20,292 bases of DNA from a virus. A model generated the notes under the pieces. That model was not told where the DNA came from. It saw only the letters and a list, made by a program, of their open reading frames with translations, and did no database searches. Location: positions 1 through 20,292 of IMG/VR virus record IMGVR_UViG_3300025311_000021; one strand, written 5' to 3'. Positions 2,721 to 19,945 of this stretch are shown here, in pieces. Positions within the stretch are counted from its first letter, which is position 1. Every line of letters starts with the position of its first letter. The translations under genes and the position numbers were made by a program.

Positions 2721-2973
2721 CCAACTCCGCGACCCGAATACCGGCGAGCTGCTCGCGATCGTCTGCGGCGACCGCAATCGCGTGCCGCTCTGCGCCTGCG
2801 GCAAGTCCTCGCGTTTTCAGTGCGACTGGAAAATCGCGCCCGGCAAGACGTGCGACAAGCATCTCTGCGGCGATCACGCCCAGGAGGTCGGCCCCGAGAA
2901 GCACTTGTGCCCGGGGCATCAAAAAGCCTATCGGCAATGGCAGGAACGCAAAACCGCAGCGGCGGGAGCATGA
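2710..2973 (+). CDS. Cys-rich, probably zinc-binding small phage protein
   Basis: An 87-residue protein with seven cysteines: one at residue 3, then C-G-D, C-A-C-G-K, C-D-W-K, C-D-K-H-L-C and C-P-G-H. The CACG..CDW..CDKHLC..H..CPGH pattern looks like a zinc ribbon or treble-clef fold, with His and Cys ligands in two clusters. ATG 2710 overlaps the end of gemA by 11 bp, and its stop overlaps the start of mor, making a gemA-Cys protein-mor unit. The role is unknown; binding nucleic acid or a host protein is only a guess. Confidence 0.65.
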   Translation: MHCNQLRDPNTGELLAIVCGDRNRVPLCACGKSSRFQCDWKIAPGKTCDKHLCGDHAQEVGPEKHLCPGHQKAYRQWQERKTAAAGA

Positions 2974-3308
2974 CGAGCCGGATGCACCCGATCCTGGAGG
3001 AACTGGCGGCCGTGGTGGCCGCCAGCCTCATGAAGCACCCGGGGCTCACGCGCGAGACCGCGGCAGCCGCGGCGGAACACATCACGGACGCGCTGCGCGC
3101 GACCTACGGCGGCGACAAGGGCATCTACATCCCGCGCACCAAGTACAGCGTCGCGTATATGCACGGCGAGATCGCACGGCGCTGGGACGGCACCAACACG
3201 CGGGAACTGTGCCGCGAACTCGGCATCAGCGATTCGCGTCTGCGCCAGCTCGCCCGCTCGGCGGATTACCCAAATCTACACCCAAAGTTTCCCGCGCTGC
3301 GCCCCTAG
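2970..3308 (+). CDS. mor: Mor/C-family middle/late transcription activator
   Basis: A 112-residue protein. Residues about 40-56 carry the family signature that ends in GGDKGIYIPR, and residues about 77-95 (NTRELCRELGISDSRLRQLA) form the C-terminal helix-turn-helix. Mu Mor (129 aa) and C bind as dimers upstream of weak -10 promoters and recruit RNA polymerase; this is near the usual size. ATG 2970 overlaps the previous TGA. It is the only Mor/C relative here, whereas Mu has two in tandem. The last 37 bp of the gene contain the shared motif proposed as its own late-promoter target (3272-3296). Confidence 0.85.
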   Translation: MTSRMHPILEELAAVVAASLMKHPGLTRETAAAAAEHITDALRATYGGDKGIYIPRTKYSVAYMHGEIARRWDGTNTRELCRELGISDSRLRQLARSADYPNLHPKFPALRP

Positions 3309-3311
3309 CAT
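3269..3311 (+). promoter_or_regulatory. Candidate Mor/C-dependent late promoter upstream of the amidase (Plys-like)
   Basis: AAATCTACACCCAAA (3272-3286), then TTTCCCG, with a -10-like TAGCAT at 3306-3311. CCCAAA is repeated 12 bp apart (3269-3274 and 3281-3286), which could be two half-sites on one face of the helix. The same 15-mer recurs at 15411-15425 upstream of the I gene, with the same offset to a -10-like hexamer. There is no -35 consensus, as in Mu C-activated promoters. Confidence 0.55.
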
Positions 3312-3317
3312 GGGCGC

Positions 3318-3941
3318 ATGGCGCAAGAATCGAGGATCGAGGATCGAGGATCGAGGATTGAGGCCCGGAAGCGGGCCGTCGATCTAATCGTCATCCATTG
3401 CAGCGCGACGCCCAACGGCCGGCGCACGACGGTCGAGGACATCGACCGCTGGCATGACGAGCGCGGTTTCGAGCGCGCTCCGGCTTGGCGGCGCCGCCAG
3501 AATCCCAACCTCGCGGCGATTGGCTATCACTTCGTGATCTATCTTGGCGGCGCGGTCGCCACCGGCCGGCATCTCGACGAGATCGGCGCGCACGTCTCGG
3601 GCAACAACCGCACCTCGATCGGCATCTGCATGATCGGCACCGACCAGTTCACGCCGCAGCAATGGGGCGCGCTCAAACACAACATCGACGGGCTCGCCAA
3701 GCTCTACGGTCGCGTGCTCGTGCCGCTGCCGGCCTCGGGGGTGATGGAACGGCGCGAGGCGGGACAGGTTTACCTCTGCGGCCACCGCGACCTTTCCCCG
3801 GATGAGGACAACGACGGCCTGGTCGAACGGTGGGAGTGGCTCAAAATCTGTCCCGGGTTTGACGTTCGCGCCTGGCTTGCGAGCGGCATGACGCCTCCGG
3901 CCGGCCACGTGCTCGAGATCCCAGACGAGGCGGCGGCGTGA
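3318..3941 (+). CDS. Endolysin: zinc N-acetylmuramoyl-L-alanine amidase (amidase_2/T7 lysozyme type)
   Basis: A 207-residue enzyme that cuts the bond between muramic acid and the peptide in peptidoglycan. Residues about 23-31 (LIVIHCSAT) hold zinc ligand H27; Y70-H71 matches the T7 lysozyme Tyr-His pair; H156 (GHRDLSPD) and C178 with K176 (KICPGF) match the other two ligands and the catalytic Lys. It occupies the place of Mu lys, directly after mor. It has no signal peptide, so release needs a holin. Residues 5-15 (SRIEDRGSRIE) are encoded by five ATCGAGG heptads rather than by family sequence; no other ATG or GTG start exists before the catalytic core. Confidence 0.9.
   Translation: MAQESRIEDRGSRIEARKRAVDLIVIHCSATPNGRRTTVEDIDRWHDERGFERAPAWRRRQNPNLAAIGYHFVIYLGGAVATGRHLDEIGAHVSGNNRTSIGICMIGTDQFTPQQWGALKHNIDGLAKLYGRVLVPLPASGVMERREAGQVYLCGHRDLSPDEDNDGLVERWEWLKICPGFDVRAWLASGMTPPAGHVLEIPDEAAA
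3329..3363 (+). repeat. ATCGAGG heptad array (five units) at the amidase N-terminus
   Basis: Four ATCGAGG units and a final ATTGAGG. Because 7 is not a multiple of 3, three units encode a heptapeptide (SRIEDRG). The same array with the same variant last unit is at 10972-10999 in the terminase gene. Confidence 0.9.
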
Positions 3942-6931: not shown

Positions 6932-8647
6932 ATGGCAACCGCGACCAAAGCAACGCGCGGCGCAGTCGGGACGAACGACTGGACGACGCCAGAAAATGCG
7001 AGCGCTGACGATGGCGTGAACTACGCCACCTGTGCCCCAGGGAAAAACGCGTCGGTCATCGGCGATTGGGATTTTGCCGCGTTCACCGACGGCGAGATCC
7101 CGGTCGGCTCGCTCATCAACTCGGTCATCATCCGCTCGAACTACAAAGTCTCCACGACGCTCTCGATCGCGTCGCTGGGCGTGCAGGCGGGCAACAACGG
7201 CGCATTCGACGCCGAGGAAACGCACGCCACCGAGCCGACCACCGACACCGATTTTAATGTCACCTTCAATGCCGAGCCGTCGATCACCGACCTGAAAACG
7301 GCCGGGCGCCTGGTCGCCCGGATCCGCGGGATTCGCGGCAACGACATCGACGCGGTCACCCTCAGCCTCGATTATGTCGAGCTCCGCGTCGATTATGCTC
7401 CGGGCCAGACCGTATCCGACGCCGGCAACATCGCGAGCGGAGAAGCCTTCGGCGCCGATCAGGCGAACCTCACGCTGCCGGCGGTGGGCGGGCTCGCGAG
7501 CGAGGAGGCGTTCGGCGCGAGCCAGCTCAATCTCACGCTCTCCGGCGCCGGTGCGATCGCGACCGAGGAAGCGTTCGGCGCGGCCACCATCAGCGCCGGC
7601 ACGCCGCAGACGGTGAGCGAGGCGGGCGCGATCGCGAGCGCCGAGGCGTTCGGCGCCGACCAGCTCAATCTCACGCTCTCCGGCGCCGGCGCGATCGACA
7701 CCGCCGAGGCCTTCGGCGCGGCCACCGTCACGCCGGGCGGCGTCACCGTCACCGCCTCGGCCATTGACAGCGCCGAGGCTTTCGGCTCGGACCAGATCAA
7801 TCTCACCCTGCCGGCGGTGGGCGGGCTCGTGAGCGAGGAGGTGTTCGGCGCCGATCAGCTTAATCTCACGCTCTCCGGCGCCGGTGCGATCGCGACCGCG
7901 GAGGCGTTCGGTGCGGCGAGCGTGGACCTGGGGCCGATCACCCTTTCGCCGACGGCGATCGCGAGCGAGGAAGCGTTCGGCGATACGACCGTCACGCCGG
8001 GCGGGGTCACCGTCACGGCATCCGCAATCGACAGCGCCGAAGCTTTCGGCACCGACCAGGTGAACCTCGCGCTCTCCGGCGCCGGCGCCATCGCGACGGC
8101 GGAAGCGTTCGGGGCGGACACCGTCACGCCCGGCGGCGTCACCGTGACCGCCTCGGGCATCGCGAGCGCCGAAACATTCGGCAGCGACCGGCTCGATTTG
8201 ACGCTGCCGGCCGTGGGCGACATCGCGAGCGCCGAGGCCTTCGGCGCCGATCAGGTGAACCTCGCGCTGCAGGCCGCGGGCGCGATCGCCAGCGCGGAAG
8301 CGTTCGGAGCTGACCAGCTCAACTTGACGCTGCCCGCCGTGGGCGACATCGCCAGCGGCGAAGCGTTCGGCGCAGACACCGTCACGCCCGGCGGCGTCAC
8401 CGTCACCGCGTCCGGCATCGCGAGCGCTGAGGCGTTCGGCGCCGACCAGCTCAACCTGACGATCACCGGCGCCGGCGCGATCGCGAGCACAGAGGCCTTC
8501 GGCACGGCGCTGGCGCAGCTCGGCCTGGTGAGCGATCCGCGCTACATCGCGCCGGACGAGGCGCGCGCATTTACGGCGGCCGACCGGCCGCGCTTGTTCA
8601 CGGCCGAAGATCCCGGCCGCACATTCACCGCACCGGAACCCCGATGA
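6932..8647 (+). CDS. Large repeat-containing tail appendage or adhesin-like protein
   Basis: A 571-residue protein. Residues 1-155 look like a beta-sandwich head (DWTTPENASADDGVNYAT through YVELRVDY), a type common at the start of phage minor tail proteins. Residues about 162-532 hold 17 copies of an E-A-F-G-centred repeat of 21-23 residues in two alternating forms, one ending DQLNLTLPAVG and one ending TVTPGGVTVTAS. Residues about 536-571 carry short F-T-A repeats (ARAFTA, RLFTA, RTFTA). The regular beta-rich stalk suggests a fibre or spike on the virion. It overlaps the adaptor gene. No catalytic motif is visible. A fibre role is inferred from context. Confidence 0.65.
   Translation: MATATKATRGAVGTNDWTTPENASADDGVNYATCAPGKNASVIGDWDFAAFTDGEIPVGSLINSVIIRSNYKVSTTLSIASLGVQAGNNGAFDAEETHATEPTTDTDFNVTFNAEPSITDLKTAGRLVARIRGIRGNDIDAVTLSLDYVELRVDYAPGQTVSDAGNIASGEAFGADQANLTLPAVGGLASEEAFGASQLNLTLSGAGAIATEEAFGAATISAGTPQTVSEAGAIASAEAFGADQLNLTLSGAGAIDTAEAFGAATVTPGGVTVTASAIDSAEAFGSDQINLTLPAVGGLVSEEVFGADQLNLTLSGAGAIATAEAFGAASVDLGPITLSPTAIASEEAFGDTTVTPGGVTVTASAIDSAEAFGTDQVNLALSGAGAIATAEAFGADTVTPGGVTVTASGIASAETFGSDRLDLTLPAVGDIASAEAFGADQVNLALQAAGAIASAEAFGADQLNLTLPAVGDIASGEAFGADTVTPGGVTVTASGIASAEAFGADQLNLTITGAGAIASTEAFGTALAQLGLVSDPRYIAPDEARAFTAADRPRLFTAEDPGRTFTAPEPR
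7417..8527 (+). repeat. Seventeen degenerate 63-69-bp coding repeats (EAFG motif)
   Basis: The repeat is conserved at DNA as well as protein level: GAGGCGTTCGGCGCC-like cores recur every 63-69 bp, with near-identical CTCAATCTCACGCTCTCCGG and GTCACGCCGGGCGGCGTCAC tracts. Copy number could change easily by recombination. Confidence 0.85.
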
Positions 8648-8962: not shown

Positions 8963-9031
8963 GTAATGAGTAATGAGTAATGGGTAAAGGGTTTGACTCA
9001 TCACCCATCACCCATCACCCATCACTGATTA
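8963..9031. repeat. Head-to-head GTRATGR heptad arrays (imperfect palindrome)
   Basis: Four forward heptads (GTAATGA, GTAATGA, GTAATGG, GTAAAGG) at 8963-8990, a 6-base spacer GTTTGA, then five reverse heptads (CTCATCA, three CCCATCA, CTGATTA) at 8997-9031, ending at the start ATG of the next gene. The two halves can pair with roughly five of seven bases per heptad, including ATGGGT/ACCCAT (8980-8985 with 9003-9008). Confidence 0.85.
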
Positions 9032-9635: not shown

Positions 9636-9938
9636 ATGGATTACGAGAAGATTCGCCGCGAGAACATCCGCTGGCACATTCTGGTGGCCGCCAACGCCGG
9701 CGCGCCGCAACCGGTCGCCGAGACGCTCATCCTCTCGGCGATCCAGTCGATCCCGGTCGAGTGCACGGCGCTGGAGCTGCGCCGCCAGCTCGACTATCTC
9801 GCCGACCGCGGCCTGGTGGAGCTGAAGCGCCATGAGGGCGCGCCGTGGACCGCGGATCTCACGCGCGAGGGCGCGGACGTGGTCGAGTACACCATCGAGT
9901 GCGATCCGGGCATCGCGCGGCCGCGTAAATACTGGTAA
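9636..9938 (+). CDS. Mu gp26-like winged-helix protein
   Basis: A 100-residue protein beginning MDYEKIRRENIRWHILVAAN. The segment LRRQLDYLADRGLVELKR (residues about 50-67) is a typical winged-helix recognition helix and wing, and the end ECDPGIARPRKYW is characteristic of this Mu gp26-type family. It lies between the gp25-like and gp27-like genes, as in Mu. It may assist packaging or regulate late genes; the function is not known. Confidence 0.75.
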   Translation: MDYEKIRRENIRWHILVAANAGAPQPVAETLILSAIQSIPVECTALELRRQLDYLADRGLVELKRHEGAPWTADLTREGADVVEYTIECDPGIARPRKYW

Positions 9939-9955
9939 TGGGATATGGGTGATGG
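9935..9955 (+). repeat. Three GTRATGR heptads overlapping stop and start codons
   Basis: GTAATGG, GATATGG and GTGATGG. The first contains the TAA stop of the gp26-like gene (9936-9938), the last supplies ATG 9952 of the next gene. Confidence 0.75.
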
Positions 9956-10494
9956 GTAAGAGAAGCAAGATCACGCAGCTCCCGCGCGAGGTCAAGGCGT
10001 GGCTCGATCAGGCGCTGATCGAGGGCAACTTCGCCGGCTACCAGGCGCTGGAGGCGGATCTCAAGTCGCGCGGCTACGACATCGGGAAATCCTCGATCCA
10101 CCGCTACGGCACGCACCTGGAGCGCAAGCTCTCCGCGATCAAGGCGAGCACCGAGGCCGCGCGGCAGATCGCGGCGGCGGCGCCGGATGACGCCGACCAG
10201 CGCTCGGCGGCCGTCATCAGTTTGATACAGACCGAGGTGTTCGAGGTGCTGGTCGCGCTGCAGGAAGCGGAGGCCGACGGCGACCCGATGAAGCGCGCGA
10301 AGCTGCTCTCCACCGTGGCCAAGAACGTCGCGACGCTCTCGCGCGCGAGCGTGAATCAGAAGAAACACGAGATCGAAGTGCGCGGCAAAGTCACGGCGGC
10401 TGCCGACCGCGCGGCCTCGATCGCCAAGAAGGGCGGGCTCACCGCGAGCGCCGTCGACACCATCCGCCGGGAGATTCTCGGCATTGCAGCATAA
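9952..10494 (+). CDS. Small terminase subunit-like protein (Mu gp27, DUF3486)
   Basis: A 180-residue protein, basic N-terminus (MGKRSKITQLPREVKAWLDQ), then LKSRGYDIGKSSIHRYGTHL, a helix-turn-helix that would bind phage DNA ends, followed by long helices. This is the DUF3486/Mu gp27 pattern, and the gene precedes the large terminase as in Mu. Small terminases recognise the packaging site and regulate the motor. ATG 9952 lies in the heptad repeat; no other start fits the family N-terminus. The Shine-Dalgarno is replaced by repeat sequence (GGGTGATGGG). Confidence 0.85.
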   Translation: MGKRSKITQLPREVKAWLDQALIEGNFAGYQALEADLKSRGYDIGKSSIHRYGTHLERKLSAIKASTEAARQIAAAAPDDADQRSAAVISLIQTEVFEVLVALQEAEADGDPMKRAKLLSTVAKNVATLSRASVNQKKHEIEVRGKVTAAADRAASIAKKGGLTASAVDTIRREILGIAA

Positions 10495-10944: not shown

Positions 10945-12561
10945 TTGAGAAAGACCCCCCCAAAAAGCAGGATCAAGGATCGAGGATCGAGGATTGAGGT
11001 CCCGGCTGCCGCCGCGCGCGACCCCCTGGACCGCCTCAAGACCGCGCCGAACGATCGTTCGGCGCCGGCGGTGCTGCTGTCGTATCAACAGGCCTGGGTC
11101 GCGGACCAGGCCGAGGTCGCGGTGTGGGAGAAGTCGCGCCGCATCGGCGCCTCGTGGTGCGACGCCTCCGACTCGGTGTTGACCGCCGCCGCGGCCGAGG
11201 GCATGGACGTGATGTATATCGGGTACTCCGAGGACATGACTCGCGAGTACATCGATGATTGCGCGATGTGGGCGCGCGCGTTCAACCGCGCCGCGAGCGC
11301 AATGCAGGAGGTGATGTTCGACGACACCGATGCCCGCGGCGAGATCCGGCAGATCAAGGCCTTCCGTATTGATTTCGCCTCGCGTTCCAAGATCCTCGCG
11401 CTCTCCTCGCGCCCGCGCTCGATCCGCGGCAAACAGGGCAAGGTCACCATCGACGAGGCCGCATTCCACGACGATCTCGATGGTCTGATCACCGCCGCGA
11501 TGGCGATGCTGATCTGGGGCGGGCGGGTGCGCATATTGTCGTCGCACAACGGCGAAGACAATCCATTCAACCTTTTGCTCAAGGATTGCCGCGCCGGGAA
11601 GCTGCCCTATTCGCTGCACGGGACGACGCTCACGACCGCGCTCGACGCCGGCCTGTTCGAGCGCATCCAATTGGTGATGGGCGCGCGGCTCAAGGAAAAA
11701 ACGCGCGCCGAGTGGGAGGCAAAAATCCGCGCGAACTACGGCGATCGCGCCGCCGAGGAGCTCGACTGCATTCCGCGCATGGGCTCGGGCGTCTACATCC
11801 CGCGCACCATCGTCGAGCGCTGCATGGAAGACGGCATCCCGCTCATCCATTACCGCAAGCCGGCCGAGTGGATGCTGAACGAGCGCCGCCTGGAAGAGGC
11901 CGACACCTGGATCCGCGACACGCTGAAACCCGTCATCGACAGCCTGCCCACCGACCGGCGCAGCGTGCTCGGCCAGGACTTCGGCCGCAGCGGAGATCTG
12001 TCCGACATCCTGGTGCTGCAGCGCGAGTCGCAGTCGCGCTGGCGCGCCGGCTTTCTGCTCGAGCTGCGCAACATCCCGTTCGACGTGCAGCAGAAGATTC
12101 TGTTTTTCATTCTCGACGAGCTGCCGTTATTTTTTCACGCCAAGTTTGACGCCCGCGGCAACGGCCAGGCGCACGCCGAGGCCGCGCTCCAGCGCTACGG
12201 CGTCTCGCGCGTGGAGTGCGTGATGGCGAGCCCGACCTGGTACGCCGCGAACTTCCCGCCCTACAAGGCGGCGTTCGAAGACCGCTCGATCGTGCTGCCG
12301 CGTTCGGAAGACGTGATCGCCGACCATCGCCGCGTGATTTTGAAAAACGGCTACCCGACGATGGACGACGGCCGGGACAAGGGCGCCGACGGTCAATACC
12401 GCCACGGGGACTCCGCCATTGCCGGGGTGAATGCCTGGGCGGCGACCAAGTGCGCTGTCGTGCCGATGGAGTTCGAATCGCTCGGGCGGATGCGCGAGAG
12501 CGCGCAGATCGACGACTATGCCGGCCGCGAGCGCTTTTCCCGCGCTGAATTTATGAGCTGA
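10945..12561 (+). CDS. Large terminase subunit (Mu gp28-like)
   Basis: A 538-residue DNA-packaging motor. The ATPase half has a Walker A-like VWEKSRRIGASW (residues about 60-71) and Walker B VTIDEAAFH (about 167-175). The C-terminal RNase H-like nuclease has acidic residues in GQDFGRSGDLS (near 345), KFDARGNGQ (near 402) and GDSAIAGVNAW (near 489). The portal follows four bases later, as in Mu. The start is unusual: no ATG or GTG precedes the core, so TTG 10945 with TAAAGG eight bases upstream is chosen. Residues 8-18 (SRIKDRGSRIE) are encoded by ATCGAGG heptads. GTG 11069 would remove the repeat but is close to the ATPase fold. Confidence 0.9.
   Translation: MRKTPPKSRIKDRGSRIEVPAAAARDPLDRLKTAPNDRSAPAVLLSYQQAWVADQAEVAVWEKSRRIGASWCDASDSVLTAAAAEGMDVMYIGYSEDMTREYIDDCAMWARAFNRAASAMQEVMFDDTDARGEIRQIKAFRIDFASRSKILALSSRPRSIRGKQGKVTIDEAAFHDDLDGLITAAMAMLIWGGRVRILSSHNGEDNPFNLLLKDCRAGKLPYSLHGTTLTTALDAGLFERIQLVMGARLKEKTRAEWEAKIRANYGDRAAEELDCIPRMGSGVYIPRTIVERCMEDGIPLIHYRKPAEWMLNERRLEEADTWIRDTLKPVIDSLPTDRRSVLGQDFGRSGDLSDILVLQRESQSRWRAGFLLELRNIPFDVQQKILFFILDELPLFFHAKFDARGNGQAHAEAALQRYGVSRVECVMASPTWYAANFPPYKAAFEDRSIVLPRSEDVIADHRRVILKNGYPTMDDGRDKGADGQYRHGDSAIAGVNAWAATKCAVVPMEFESLGRMRESAQIDDYAGRERFSRAEFMS
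10972..10999 (+). repeat. ATCGAGG heptad array (four units) at the terminase N-terminus
   Basis: ATCAAGG, ATCGAGG, ATCGAGG and ATTGAGG. It is read in the same frame as the array at 3329-3363 and gives the same peptide core (SRIxDRGSRIE). Confidence 0.9.
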
Positions 12562-14074: not shown

Positions 14075-14897
14075 CGTCAATTTCAATCTCGCGCCGGCAC
14101 AAGCGGCCGCGTTTTTTCGCGGCAAGGGGCTGCGCGCCTCGTTCGCCTGGCAGGACGTGCTGCACGACGAGCATGACGTCAATTTCGTCGTCGCCAAAAT
14201 GCTCGACCTCGATCTGCTTTCCGATGTGCACGGCTATGTCGATCGCGTGATCTCCGAGGGTTGGACGCAGAAGCGCTTCATCGATGAGCTGAAACCGGAA
14301 CTCGTCAACCGCGGCTGGTGGGGCCGGGCGATGATGACGGACCCCGCGACCGGCGAAGCGCGCGATGTCCAGCTCGGCAGCGTGCGGCGGCTCAAAACGA
14401 TCTACGACGTGAATTTGAGCACCGCCTATTCGGCCGGGCAATCCGCGCGGATCGAGGAGAACAAGGCGACCGCGCCGTATGTGATGTACAGCGCCATCCT
14501 CGATGGCCGCACGCGCCCGCAGCACCGCGCATGGAACGGGATCGTGCTGCCGGCCGACGATCCGTGGTGGCAGACGCACACGCCTCCGAATGGTTATCAC
14601 TGCCGGTGCACGCGGATCCAGCTCTCGCAACGCGACCTCCAACGCCTGGGCAAGAGCGGCCCGGATAAATCGCCCCCGGTGCAAACGCGAGAATGGCAAA
14701 ACCCGCGCACCGGCGAAGTGACGCAGGTGCCGGTCGGCATCGATCCCGGTTTCGGTTACGCGCCCGGCGCGAGCCGCCGCGACGAGATCGTCCAGGTCGC
14801 ACGCGACAAAGCCGCCGGCGCGCCGCCGGAGCTGCGTGCCGCCTTTCTGGAATGGCTGGACGCCACGATCGCACAGCGGCGAGGCGCCACGCGATGA
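14064..14897 (+). CDS. Phage head morphogenesis protein (Mu gpF, gp30-like)
   Basis: A 277-residue protein of the Phage_Mu_F family. N-terminal helices carry APAQAAAFFRGKGLRASFAW; the family core is ILDGRTRPQHRAWNGIVLPA and the THTPPNGYHCRCTRIQLS segment at residues about 146-195, with the conserved R-x-x-H and C-R-C residues. Mu F is a minor head protein needed for assembly. GTG 14064 overlaps the portal stop by 11 bp, and the next gene overlaps its own stop by 4 bp, so portal, F and G form one coupled unit. Confidence 0.9.
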   Translation: MATSVNFNLAPAQAAAFFRGKGLRASFAWQDVLHDEHDVNFVVAKMLDLDLLSDVHGYVDRVISEGWTQKRFIDELKPELVNRGWWGRAMMTDPATGEARDVQLGSVRRLKTIYDVNLSTAYSAGQSARIEENKATAPYVMYSAILDGRTRPQHRAWNGIVLPADDPWWQTHTPPNGYHCRCTRIQLSQRDLQRLGKSGPDKSPPVQTREWQNPRTGEVTQVPVGIDPGFGYAPGASRRDEIVQVARDKAAGAPPELRAAFLEWLDATIAQRRGATR

Positions 14898-15403
14898 CTT
14901 ATCCGGTCATCCACATCGACGATCGCCCCGTCATCGATGCGTTGAATCGCCTGTTCGCGATCGGCGAGGATCCGCGTCCCGCGCTCGACGCGATAGGCCG
15001 GCTGCTCGAAACCAAGATCAGGCAGGGCTTCGACATGAGCACCGATCCCTACGGCCGGCCGTGGGCGCCGCTCAAAATCCGTCACGGCCAGCCGCTGCGC
15101 GATATAGGTCACCTGATGCAATCGATCAGCTATCAGGTCGAAGGCAACAGCGTGGAGATCGGCACCGACAGGCCCTATGCGCCCACTCAGCACTACGGCG
15201 CCACGATCGAGGCGAAAACAGCCAAGGCGCTGCGCTTCTTCGTCAACGGAAAGCCGGTTTTCGTTGGCCGCGGCCACAAGATCACGATCCCGGCGCGCAT
15301 GATCTTCCCGACTGATGGGCTGCCGCCGGACTGGGAGACCGAATCGCTGGATGCGATCGGCGATGTGGTGCGCCCGGCCTGGGATGGCAAGGGGTCCGCG
15401 TAA
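14894..15403 (+). CDS. Phage virion morphogenesis protein (Mu gpG, gp31-like)
   Basis: A 169-residue protein of the Mu G/P2 S tail-completion family: IGRLLETKIRQGFDMSTDPY and GRPWAPLKIRHGQPLRD at residues about 34-74, then a beta-rich part (IGTDRPYAPTQHYGATIEAK) and GHKITIPARMIFP. It acts in head-tail joining or tail completion. ATG 14894 overlaps the F-type stop. Its stop at 15403 is followed eight bases later by the shared late-promoter motif, so it ends the first late operon. Confidence 0.88.
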   Translation: MTYPVIHIDDRPVIDALNRLFAIGEDPRPALDAIGRLLETKIRQGFDMSTDPYGRPWAPLKIRHGQPLRDIGHLMQSISYQVEGNSVEIGTDRPYAPTQHYGATIEAKTAKALRFFVNGKPVFVGRGHKITIPARMIFPTDGLPPDWETESLDAIGDVVRPAWDGKGSA

Positions 15404-15410
15404 TTTACTG

Positions 15411-15450
15411 AAATCTACACCCAAACATTCCCGGCGCGGGGCGGCAAACT
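15411..15450 (+). promoter_or_regulatory. Candidate Mor/C-dependent late promoter upstream of I (PI-like)
   Basis: AAATCTACACCCAAA (15411-15425), two bases, then TTCCCG, a repeat of the element at 3272-3294. A weak -10-like CAAACT (15445-15450) lies 34 bases from the motif start, the same offset as TAGCAT in the first copy. It lies in the only sizeable gap in the head-gene region, where Mu places its C-activated PI promoter. A GCGGCA/TGCCGC hairpin (15441-15457) overlaps the -10 region. Confidence 0.55.
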
Positions 15451-15459
15451 CTGCCGCTG

Positions 15460-15531
15460 ATGAACCCGATCATTTTCTCAGAAATTTTTCGCAAGACGGC
15501 GGCCCTCGCCGGCGGCAGACTCGGCGACTAA
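15460..15531 (+). CDS. Possible 23-residue leader ORF coupled to I
   Basis: ATG 15460 opens a short frame MNPIIFSEIFRKTAALAGGR-LGD that ends at TAA 15529-15531, overlapping the I start as TAATG. This geometry is typical of translational coupling, but no Shine-Dalgarno is visible and the ORF is short enough to be chance. Confidence 0.3.
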   Translation: MNPIIFSEIFRKTAALAGGRLGD

Positions 15532-16664
15532 TGAAGCTGATCCCGATCTTCAGGGCCGGCCGCCACCTCGCCACCAACGGCCAGACCTACGATTTCACCG
15601 ATGCCATCGTGGCGGCGAGCGCCGCCGCCTACGATCCGGCCAAGCACGAAGCGCCGCTCGTCGTGGGGCACCCCAAAACCGATGACCCCGCCTACGGCTG
15701 GGTTGAATCGCTGTCCTACCGCGAGCGCGGCCTCGACGCGATCCCCAAGCAGGTCGAGCCGCAGTTCGCCGAGCTCTACGCCACCGGCCGCTTCAAGAAA
15801 GTTTCCGCGAGCTTCTACCCGCCCGACCACCCGCAGAACCCGGTGCCGGGCGTCTATTACCTGCGGCACGTCGGTTTTCTCGGCGCGGCGCCGCCGGCGG
15901 TAAAGGGGCTGAAGGCCGCGAGCTTCGCCGACGAGCAAGGCGTAATTGAATTCGCGGACTGGGCCGACACGCAGAACGCCTCGCTTTGGCGCCGCCTGCG
16001 CGAATGGATCATCAGCAAGCACACCATCGAAGAGGCCGACAAGGTCGTGCCCGATTACGCGGTCGCCGCGCTCGAAGATGCCGCGCGCGCTGACGCCGCG
16101 GGAAGCGGCTCGCCCATGATGAGTTACTCCGAACAAACAGCAGAGGAGAAGCAAATGGCGCTCACCCAGCAACAGCTCGACCAACAGGCCGCCGAACTCA
16201 AGAAGCAACAGGATGCGCAGGCCGCGAAAGACGTGGCGTTCGCCGAGCGCGAAGCGAAGATCAAGACCGCCGAGGACGCGCAGCGCGCGGAAGCCGCGAA
16301 GCGCCACCGCGCCGCGATCGCCGAGTTCGTCGAGGCGCTGGTTAAGGAAGGCAAAGTCCTGCCCGCGCTCAAAGAGGGGCTCATCGCCTTCATGGCCGGG
16401 ACCGACCAGGCGGGCGTGGTCGAGTTCGGCGAGGGCGATAAGCACGAGAAAAAGCCGGCGCTCGAATGGCTCAAAAGCTACCTCGCCGCGCAACCAAAGA
16501 TCGTGGAGTTCAAGGAAACCGCCAAGACCGGCGTCGAAGTCGATCTCGACAATCCGAAGGAGATCGCGAAACGCGCGGTGGAATTCCAGGAGACCGAACG
16601 CAAGGCCGGCCGCGAGATCTCGGTCACTGCGGCCGTGCAGCACGTCACCAAGGGCGCGAACTGA
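15531..16664 (+). CDS. I: Head protease with C-terminal scaffold (Mu gpI-like)
   Basis: A 377-residue protein. Residues about 1-140 (IPIFRAGRHLATNGQTYDFT, EAPLVVGHPKTDDPAYGWV, and the FKKVSASFYPPDHPQ segment) are the Mu I-type protease domain, with GHP as the likely catalytic His and S-A-S-F as the likely Ser region. Residues about 209-377 are a Gln/Lys/Glu-rich helical scaffold. The protease removes the scaffold during capsid maturation. It starts the second late unit behind the PI-like motif and is followed by cement and capsid genes, as in other Mu-like phages. Confidence 0.88.
   Translation: MKLIPIFRAGRHLATNGQTYDFTDAIVAASAAAYDPAKHEAPLVVGHPKTDDPAYGWVESLSYRERGLDAIPKQVEPQFAELYATGRFKKVSASFYPPDHPQNPVPGVYYLRHVGFLGAAPPAVKGLKAASFADEQGVIEFADWADTQNASLWRRLREWIISKHTIEEADKVVPDYAVAALEDAARADAAGSGSPMMSYSEQTAEEKQMALTQQQLDQQAAELKKQQDAQAAKDVAFAEREAKIKTAEDAQRAEAAKRHRAAIAEFVEALVKEGKVLPALKEGLIAFMAGTDQAGVVEFGEGDKHEKKPALEWLKSYLAAQPKIVEFKETAKTGVEVDLDNPKEIAKRAVEFQETERKAGREISVTAAVQHVTKGAN
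16155..16664 (+). CDS. Z: Internal scaffold protein translated within I (Mu gpZ-like)
   Basis: ATG 16155 lies in frame inside the protease gene and has a strong Shine-Dalgarno AGAGGAG (16142-16148) six bases upstream. It would give a 169-residue protein starting MALTQQQLDQQAAELKKQQD, a coiled-coil scaffold without the protease. In Mu, Z is made in just this way from the 3' part of I. Internal Shine-Dalgarno sites are otherwise scarce in this gene-dense window, which supports real use. Confidence 0.7.
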   Translation: MALTQQQLDQQAAELKKQQDAQAAKDVAFAEREAKIKTAEDAQRAEAAKRHRAAIAEFVEALVKEGKVLPALKEGLIAFMAGTDQAGVVEFGEGDKHEKKPALEWLKSYLAAQPKIVEFKETAKTGVEVDLDNPKEIAKRAVEFQETERKAGREISVTAAVQHVTKGAN

Positions 16665-16670
16665 TTAAAC

Positions 16671-16705
16671 CCATCGCCCGTCATCCATCACCCATCACCG
16701 ATCAG
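16671..16705 (-). repeat. Reverse-oriented GTRATGR heptads between I and the cement gene
   Basis: Five CCATCAC-like units (CCATCGC, CCGTCAT, CCATCAC, CCATCAC, CGATCAG) fill the gap. The last one runs into the Shine-Dalgarno AGGAG of the next gene. Confidence 0.8.
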
Positions 16706-17508: not shown

Positions 17509-17543
17509 GGTGATGGGTGATGAGTAATGAGTGATGAGTAAAA
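17509..17543 (+). repeat. Forward GTRATGR heptads before the capsid gene
   Basis: GGTGATG, GGTGATG, AGTAATG, AGTGATG and AGTAAAA lie between the cement stop and the Shine-Dalgarno AAGGAGA of the capsid gene. Confidence 0.8.
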
Positions 17544-17563: not shown

Positions 17564-18625
17564 ATGAAAAGCTACTTCAAATCCAATCTTCTGCAGATCG
17601 TGCTCGCCCTCGCGTTGATGGTGGGCATGTTCTTCGGCGCGATCGCGCCGGCGGATGCCGCTCTCGGCGGAATCATCCTGGTGACGACCGTGGCGCCGTT
17701 CCCGGTCACGCCCGAGCTCACGGCGGTTGCGCTCGCGTACCGCAATGTCAGGATGATCGCAGATGAGGTGCTGCCGCGAGTGCCGGTAGGCCTGCAGAAC
17801 TTCAAATACAACAGCTACCCCAAGGGCAGCTTGTTTACCATCACCGAGACGCGCGTCGGACGCAAGGGCGCGCCCAACACGGTCGAGTTCACCGCAACCG
17901 AGGTCGACTCATCGACCTTCGACGAGGCGCTCGACGACGAAGTGCCGAACGCCGACATCGAAAACGCACGCAACCAGCCCAACATGCCCGATCCGCTCAT
18001 GGAAGCGGCCGAAGGCCTGACCGAACTGGTCGTTCTCAAGCGCGAGCAGCGCGTCGCGGCGCTGGTCTTCGCCGCGGCGAACTACGGCAGCGGCAACAAA
18101 GTGCAACTGTCCGGCAACGATCAGTGGAACGTGGTGCACGCCGACAGCAACCCGGTTGCCGACATCACCACGGGGCTCGATGCCTGCATCATGCGCCCAA
18201 ACGTCATGGTCATCGGCCGCGCGGCCTACACTAAGCTCGCGCAAAATGCGGCGATGGTCAAGGCTTACAATGGCACCACCGGCGATTCCGGTATTGTGCC
18301 GCGCCGCTTCATCGCGGATCTGTTCGAGCTCGAGGAAATCCTGGTCGGTGAAGGCTGGGTCAACACCGCCAAGAAGGGCCAGGCGGCGAGCCTCGCGCGC
18401 GTGTGGGGCAAGCACGCCGCGCTGATCTACCGGAATAAACAGGCGCGCGCGCAGCGCGGCACGACGTTCGGATTCACGGCCCAGTGGGGCGGCCGGATCG
18501 CGGGCAGTGAATACGACGGCAAGATCGGCATGCGCGGCGGCCAGCGCGTGCGCGTCGGTGAATCGGTGCGCGAACTGATCATGGCCAACGACCTGGGATA
18601 CTTCATCGAAGACTGCGTGGCGTAG
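17564..18625 (+). CDS. Major capsid protein with an N-terminal signal-like segment
   Basis: A 353-residue protein. Segments such as TPELTAVALAYRNVRMIADE, VLPRVPVG, ENARNQPNMPDPLMEAAEGL and the C-terminal FTAQWGGRIAGSEYDGKIGM region are those of HK97-fold capsids of Mu-like siphophages (B3 type). ATG 17564 is set by AAGGAGA. Unusually, residues 1-32 have basic start, hydrophobic core (LLQIVLALALMVGMFFGAIA) and ADA-A, just like a secretion signal. Mu-like capsids are cut by the I protease, so this piece could be a removable peptide, a membrane tether for assembly or a wrong start; the strong ribosome-binding site argues against the last. Confidence 0.85.
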   Translation: MKSYFKSNLLQIVLALALMVGMFFGAIAPADAALGGIILVTTVAPFPVTPELTAVALAYRNVRMIADEVLPRVPVGLQNFKYNSYPKGSLFTITETRVGRKGAPNTVEFTATEVDSSTFDEALDDEVPNADIENARNQPNMPDPLMEAAEGLTELVVLKREQRVAALVFAAANYGSGNKVQLSGNDQWNVVHADSNPVADITTGLDACIMRPNVMVIGRAAYTKLAQNAAMVKAYNGTTGDSGIVPRRFIADLFELEEILVGEGWVNTAKKGQAASLARVWGKHAALIYRNKQARAQRGTTFGFTAQWGGRIAGSEYDGKIGMRGGQRVRVGESVRELIMANDLGYFIEDCVA

Positions 18626-19594: not shown

Positions 19595-19900
19595 ATGACC
19601 CAACACATTCCAGGACACGGCGGCAGTTACGCGGTGAACGACGCGGGCGAGCTGGTGCAGAAAGAGGCCCCGACGCAGGACCATCCCGAGGGCAACCGCG
19701 CGCGCGATGCCGACGGCAAGCCGCTCGATCTCCCCCCATCCCAACCTTCCCCCACAAGGGGGGAAGGAGATGTTTTCCCCTCCCGCTTGAAGGGGGAGGG
19801 CGAGGGTGGGGGTGAAAAACCGGCGGAGATACCCGCGCCGAAGCCCGCGCCGGATCGGCCGCGCCGCATCGGCCCCGCCCCTTTTCCCGCCGGCGACTGA
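19595..19900 (+). CDS. Small Pro/Gly-rich late protein carrying a repeat insertion
   Basis: A 101-residue protein. Residues about 1-45 (MTQHIPGHGGSYAVNDAGEL through RARDADGKPLD) resemble small proteins found before tail genes in Mu-like phages. Residues about 46-75 are translated from a long CCCTC-type palindromic repeat (19727-19823) and are Pro/Gly/Glu/Arg-rich. The end is Pro/Ala-rich, so most of the protein is probably disordered. ATG 19595 follows the upstream stop by one base. Function unknown. Confidence 0.55.
   Translation: MTQHIPGHGGSYAVNDAGELVQKEAPTQDHPEGNRARDADGKPLDLPPSQPSPTRGEGDVFPSRLKGEGEGGGEKPAEIPAPKPAPDRPRRIGPAPFPAGD
19727..19823. repeat. CCCTC-type double palindrome inside a late gene
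   Basis: Two adjacent hairpins: CCTTCCCCC/GGGGGGAAGG with an ACAA loop, and CCCCTCCCGCTTGAAGGGGG-AGGG. Together with flanking CTCCCCCCATCCC and GGTGGGGGTG arms this is a longer member of the family at 2439-2474. The reading frame stays open through it. Confidence 0.75.
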
Positions 19901-19910
19901 ACGCCCTTCG

Positions 19911-19945
19911 TTCATCACCGATCACTCATCACTCATTACCCATTA
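19911..19945 (-). repeat. Reverse-oriented GTRATGR heptads before the tail tube gene
   Basis: TTCATCA, CCGATCA, CTCATCA, CTCATTA and CCCATTA fill the gap between a stop at 19900 and the ATG at 19958. Confidence 0.8.

Follow-up and report, generated by a model that had tools for sequence, protein, structure and literature searches.

A repeated motif before the lysis and head genes of a Mu-like phage as the probable operator of its own Mor-family activator

The window analyzed here, a whole virus record of 20,292 b with 65% GC, is probably a fragment. It contains the motif AAATCTACACCCAAANNTTCCC twice on the + strand, once before a lysis gene and once before gene I (Table 1). We propose, with a probability of about 0.87, that the Mor-family activator encoded by the phage itself uses this motif as its operator and acts from it on two late promoters, Plys and PI. 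Mor would be produced at the end of the early genes, would bind about 43 b upstream of the start at the -35 place and would recruit host RNA polymerase to the -10 hexamer, turning on the lysis/packaging genes and the head genes together. The predicted starts are at about 3318 (Plys) and about 15457-15460 (PI).

Table 1. Features of the two predicted late promoters and of repeated DNA in the window
Feature	Position	Strand	Basis or remark
mor-like gene, Mor/C-family activator	2970..3308	+	PF08765 and phrog_532
Operator copy 1 (Plys, predicted), AAATCTACACCCAAAGTTTCCC	3272..3293	+	letters and homologous place in relatives
Predicted -10 TAGCAT	3306..3311	+	34 b from operator start; 6 b before ATG
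Amidase/endolysin gene	3318..3941	+	Amidase_2 PF01510, E 1.7e-11; phrog_822
gpG/Phage_tail_S-like virion morphogenesis gene	14894..15403	+	PF05069, E 1e-16
Operator copy 2 (PI, predicted), AAATCTACACCCAAACATTCCC	15411..15432	+	letters, place, relatives
Predicted -10 CAAACT	15445..15450	+	34 b from operator start
Leader ORF, 23 codons	15460..15531	+	overlaps I start as TAATG; translation uncertain
Protease/scaffold gene I	15531..16664	+	phrog_976 head maturation protease, E 8e-119
Imperfect direct repeat	15440..15540	+	15440-15469 and 15511-15540, 71 b apart, 77% alike
Heptamer tandem arrays	341-369, 3329-3363, 8963-9025, 9934-9959, 10969-10999, 16669-16704, 17510-17541, 19912-19936

The Mor Gene and the Two Motif Sites

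The Mor-like protein of the window was found to belong to PF08765 (E 7e-12; 45.7 bits with a cut-off of 24.9), and it matches the late transcriptional activator family phrog_532 (E 7e-13). A profile of this protein and six relatives matched Mu Mor 1rr7 and C 9l0x/9vw8 with E values from 1.5e-13 to 2.6e-12, while the single sequence gave no match to 1rr7, 9l0x or 9vw8. Searches with tblastn against the phages collection returned nothing at E 0.01 for the window Mor, and the DNA at 2900-3400 had no distant match in that collection. Among the GTDB genome contigs 63 stretches fit the Mor peptide patterns, none of which encodes a relative. An earlier sequence-only reading of this DNA had suggested a so far undescribed Mor/C-type regulator. 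The regulator is very probably of this type, but it is likely the PF08765 member encoded in the window itself; the activator family is already described and only the operator letters are new here.

According to the ORF assignments, copy 1 lies inside the last codons of mor, directly 5' of the amidase gene, and copy 2 lies in the gap between the gpG-like gene and the protease gene I. These are the places of Plys and PI in Mu, and the placement of copy 1 in coding DNA upstream of the amidase gene agrees with what the sequence-only reading had described. The mor stop codon TAG (3306-3308) forms the first half of the predicted -10. A scan of the window allowing up to three mismatches found no third site beyond those at 3272 and 15411, as had been noted by eye. 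The sequence-only reading had expected further copies upstream of the later tail genes (PP in Mu) and of a modification or end gene. No additional copy was found in the 1.9 kb past the window end on the near-identical contig L007, and the record ends shortly past the head genes. Exact matches to the motif were found in five IMG/VR contigs. Four are near-identical relatives, of which two carry copy 1 and two carry copy 2. The fifth is an unrelated AT-rich contig (L004) with the match on the other strand inside a RecA-like ORF (named by eye), which was taken as chance. The exact motif was absent from the GTDB genome contigs.

The near-identical relative L003 (635-1120) has the same mor and operator, together with a GemA that is 77% identical. 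Judged by the letters, this difference is a mosaic exchange immediately upstream of mor.

The window also contains arrays of heptamers (TGAGTGA, ATCGAGG, CATCACC, and their kin), several of them close to where genes begin; the 3329 and 10969 arrays fall at the N-terminal end of the amidase and large terminase reading frames, respectively. Long internal repeats with SAEAFGADQLNLTL-like units were found in a 571-codon ORF (6932-8647), which perhaps encodes a tail-fibre or surface protein.

Spacing and Promoter Form

At both sites a -10-like hexamer (TAGCAT and CAAACT, respectively) is located exactly 34 b from the operator start, and no TTGACA-like hexamer was found 16-18 b before either of the two. 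By their letters, the sites have the non-consensus -10, the fixed spacing and the lack of a good -35 of a Mu-type late promoter, and the putative activator site that they share precedes both the lysis gene and I, as in Mu. The arrangement TAGCAT-N6-ATG was also found in G005, G006, and L034, while CAAACT recurs at the I promoters of G005, G010, and G012. The imperfect direct repeat near the I start seems to have arisen by duplication of a -10/start segment.

Of 23 PI sites, 18 have a hexamer of the form NANNNT 5-8 b upstream of the start codon, compared to 58 of 567 control starts (the first start codons of other long ORFs), and at 20 of the 23 the start codon is 48-57 b from the operator start. 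This set excludes L094 and L099 from the 25 sites listed; the PI start counted is that of the leader ORF (15460) in the window, while in D3112 it belongs to a 57-codon ORF that lacks annotation and not to the annotated I. Shine-Dalgarno-like letters were found at 8 of the 23 PI sites and are no rarer there than in the control (178 of 567). The spacing to the start codon and the hexamers suggest that I and some lysis genes are transcribed with little or no leader. The amidase gene of the window may be one of them, and its ATG is predicted to be +1. A reachable start codon with an NANNNT hexamer was found at only 8 of 19 lysis sites, window included, and the leaderless start as a general mark of such promoters was therefore narrowed to I. 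According to PMC4461284, the mapped start lies 20 nt inside the downstream end of the Mu oligos in its Table 1; by hand count this puts the Mu PI start about 6-10 b upstream of an ATG. In the Mu record, the annotated start of I comes slightly later than this ATG.

The Same Two Places in Diverged Relatives

We compared 80 gp27-anchored loci, from 152 relatives found, and 24 F-anchored loci. The uncultured relatives G005 (IMGVR 3300003465_000026) and G010 (3300044961_000622) have the same order as the window, mor-operator-late genes-operator-I, while their operators differ from that of the window (CCCCAAATCCTGTACCCAGA in G005 and CCCCACATCCGTTACCTGAT in G010). The Mor of G005 is 53% identical to that of the window over the matched part, and its I is 42% identical. 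G005 is without the window motif; in its own pair, CCTCAAATCCTGTACCCAGA follows mor and CCCCAAATCCTGTACCCAGA precedes I. Repeat pairs in their own letters were also found in other relatives, including G010, G011, G009, and the piece pair L034/L112; the two pieces come from one metagenome (3300027513) and may be from different phages.

Sixteen phages, Fc02 among them, were chosen together with the interval rule after the first matches and sites were known, and 11 of them had a within-phage repeat of at least 17/20 at both places, compared to 2 of 240 between-phage pairings. None of 20000 re-pairings reached the observed within-phage sum. The lysis interval was -60 to +80 b around the mor stop, or the 170 b before the first annotated lysis gene, and the I interval was the 200 b before I. 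The test left out G012, G014, G015, L079, L076, and L103, where the lysis-side interval was set by eye, G006 and L034, which are without I sequence, and the near relatives Bhz63, L094, L099, L106, Ps60, JBD67, JD18, JBD25, and H72. KS10 was left out since its mor lies directly before I, and it has no repeat at the lysis genes.

Ungapped pairing failed in 5 of the 16 phages. In G007 the I sequence pairs with a site before the baseplate hub gene and in Rashabar with a site before the tape-measure gene, while pairing in G013 requires a shift in the spacer. L110 showed no lysis/I pairing by the ungapped test. The Mu lysis/I score in this test was 15, and the ungapped whole-record scan missed the known Plys/PI match of Mu.

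Nineteen records were then scanned with their own operators at an identity of at least 75%. The window and 10 relatives had lysis-side and I sites only. Two + strand sites and no others were found in the window, G005, G009, G010, G011, G012, G014, G015, YPCBV-1, SHP3, Bhz63, and Rashabar, the two of Rashabar being those at I and tail. G007 and D3112 had two sites and one weaker match, and B3 had three + strand sites and two reverse readings of palindromes. A single site was found in G004, G013, G016, and G017 (in G017 together with its own reverse reading). The suggestion that one operator is common to Plys-like and PI-like late promoters, already made in the sequence-only reading, agrees with position, spacing and relatives, and we keep it as a prediction.

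Some of these records have further features near the sites or the record ends. In RcWaterboi (L141 13279-13306, 21542-21569) a long hairpin, rich in GC and carrying a T-run (CCCCCGGAC..TGTGTCCGGGGGTTTTGC), precedes both the lysozyme gene and I and appears terminator-like as well as operator-like. In D3112 (L140 18927-19199) the anti-CRISPR gene AcrF2 separates the G gene from the PI-side repeat at 19741. Close to its right end, the Chromohalobacter phage YPCBV-1 (L134 34205-35938) has annotations for the diversity-generating retroelement protein Avd and for an RNA-directed DNA polymerase.

Dyad Symmetry

Dyads were found in L034/L112 (CTTAAC-N4-GTTAAG) and in B3 at I (TTTTCGG-N4-CCGAAAA). In G013 the site following mor reads TTAACGCCGGTTAAAAGAG and the one preceding I reads TTTTAACCGGCGTTAAAAGAC, similar dyads that differ in their spacer. 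Counted by hand with the start codon as +1, the dyad centres are at -42.5 (L034) and -43.5 (G013; B3 at I). Passages of PMC4390567 describe the Mu Mor site as a 16-bp dyad element with 5-bp inverted repeats and its centre at -43.5. Symmetry is clear in L034/L112, G013, and B3; the window site fits in position and has no clear dyad. CCCAAA does occur twice, 12 b apart, in copy 1, which had been read as the signature of a dimeric activator. This reading was dropped because copy 2 differs (CTGAAA...CCCAAA), and the symmetric relatives carry inverted repeats instead of direct ones.

Mor Count and Operator Specificity

The Mor profile was run over 25 records and found one Mor/C ORF in 21, window included, and two (Mor and C) in Mu, for which a 24-kb stretch served as control. 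It found no Mor/C ORF in G004, G016, and G017, contigs that are taken to lack the region. With one Mor/C gene, the middle step of Mu seems absent, as in B3.

The Mor recognition helix divides eight Pseudomonas B3-like phages into three groups (TEDWIYS; SEGLIYE; TPSSIYK), and their operators give the same three groups, the lysis site of H72 being outside the stretch compared. B3 and the other Pseudomonas B3-like phages examined have a third site before the tape-measure gene. The Mor proteins of B3 and Rashabar are identical in 102 of 120 columns, with 7 of 17 substitutions located in the helix-turn-helix (hand count), and the operators of the two phages differ at all three sites, lysis, I, and tail. 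Their DNA is the same over a stretch reaching 20 b upstream and 137 b downstream of the I start. On these letters, the I region of B3 (L133 19800-19970) and Rashabar (L138 20097-20266) is a natural operator swap. The distances between recognition helices and between operators appear weakly correlated, with r 0.28 (104/5000, n 13, relatedness not removed), or r 0.26 (157/5000, n 13) when the last residue is dropped.

Putative operators in Fc02 precede the holin gene (TTTTCGCTCCTTCCAAAATAC), I (TTTTCGCCCCTTCCAAAAGAC) and the tape-measure gene (TTTTAGCGTCTTCCAAAAGAC). RNA-seq after induction of Fc02 gave three forward-strand late clusters (PMC9936078, section 3.2). As described in that section, the first has the holin-endolysin genes first and then the packaging genes, and the second has mainly virion structural genes with a terminator at its end, followed by the third cluster. 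We infer that clusters two and three start at I and at the tape-measure gene, so that the three sites fit the three published clusters.

The motif could alternatively be read at the same promoters by another regulator, either a host factor or another phage HTH protein. This is unlikely, although more small regulators could lie outside the fragment: the operator letters vary by phage, in the B3-like groups along with the Mor recognition helix, and the operator position is that published for Mu Mor. In addition, mor immediately precedes copy 1, and its 3' end runs into the operator in L034, G009, and G013 as well as in the window. We accordingly favor Mor as the presumed binder.

Chance Repetition and Other Signals

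Identical 15-mers of any composition are common in the window, with 194 pairs compared to a shuffle mean of 2.1. The case therefore draws its strength from AT-rich composition, location and relatives. The repeat has 33% GC and is surrounded by DNA of 65% GC. The window has seven pairs of identical AT-rich 15-mers (at most 40% GC), and those other than AAATCTACACCCAAANNTTCCC appear to stem from the heptamer arrays. Only 2 of 300 dinucleotide shuffles had any AT-rich identical pair. The earlier statement that chance is very unlikely is upheld for AT-rich letters, but not for 15-mer identity in general.

In whole-record searches, the 200 b before I reached the lysis promoter in 16 of 21 records compared to 7 of 1260 random segments; the first matches were already known when all of the target intervals were set, 3 of the 16 landings were by tie (G011, L076, B3), and 10 of 15 records land there when the six with a target drawn around the match are excluded. 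Random segments often reach 17-19/20 elsewhere in their own genome, and the match score alone was rejected as evidence because such segments score as high. The score is thus not unusual for such DNA, while the place is. Chance, or a background of local repeats in a GC-rich phage where exact repeats abound, could draw on both the 194 pairs and these scores, yet it is most improbable given the rarity of AT-rich repeats in shuffles, the equal -10-like spacing at the two sites and the repetition of other letters at the same two places in relatives.

That copy 2 is a strong gyrase site or another replication or packaging signal is hardly credible: the Mu record does have a gyrase cut site (17879-17880) between G and I, but a gyrase site requires no paired motif, and the reading was set aside because it leaves copy 1 unexplained, which precedes the lysis gene on the coding strand at an equal distance to a -10-like hexamer.

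Implications and Comparison With Known Systems

The main interest, above the window motif alone, lies in a general rule and in the natural specificity swaps. To us the chances seem even that the repeat common to the I and lysis (or tail) promoters reveals the binding code in Mu-like phages with a single Mor, that one Mor drives the late operons directly, that the -10 usually abuts the I start codon (leaderless), and that helix and operators re-specify together. Comparing I-promoter with lysis-promoter DNA would then give operator targets for a class of uncharacterised activators. If true, such phages are a natural panel of mutually independent activator-operator pairs, many of the activator-promoter pairs being probably independent and of laboratory use, and they show a phage activator and its scattered sites switching specificity together. 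The Fc02 RNA-seq and the B3/Rashabar natural swaps make the prediction testable at once.

In Mu, C activates the late promoters Plys and PI, and Mor activates the middle promoter Pm. The window resembles Mu in the genes concerned (a lysis gene and I), in an activator of the same family, in a putative site at or just upstream of the -35 place and in a non-consensus -10 at its predicted late promoters. A Mu PI oligo in PMC4461284 also carries CAAACT, and a figure legend of the same paper gives a 10-bp match in common between the lys and I promoters. Unlike Mu, the window has other operator letters and one Mor/C gene, not two, and its operator overlaps the end of mor, with the mor stop within the predicted -10.

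Promoters were predicted for D3112-like phages, with no operator motif in the passages of PMC4378225 consulted, and none of the open-access titles among the matches listed announces late operators for Mor proteins of non-Mu phages. The B3-like phages (B3, Rashabar, Fc02) are like the window in having one annotated Mor and related sites before the lysis operon and I. They differ from it by a third site before the tape-measure gene and by a mor at the far end of a leftward operon, and the B3 operators are dyads, unlike the window site.
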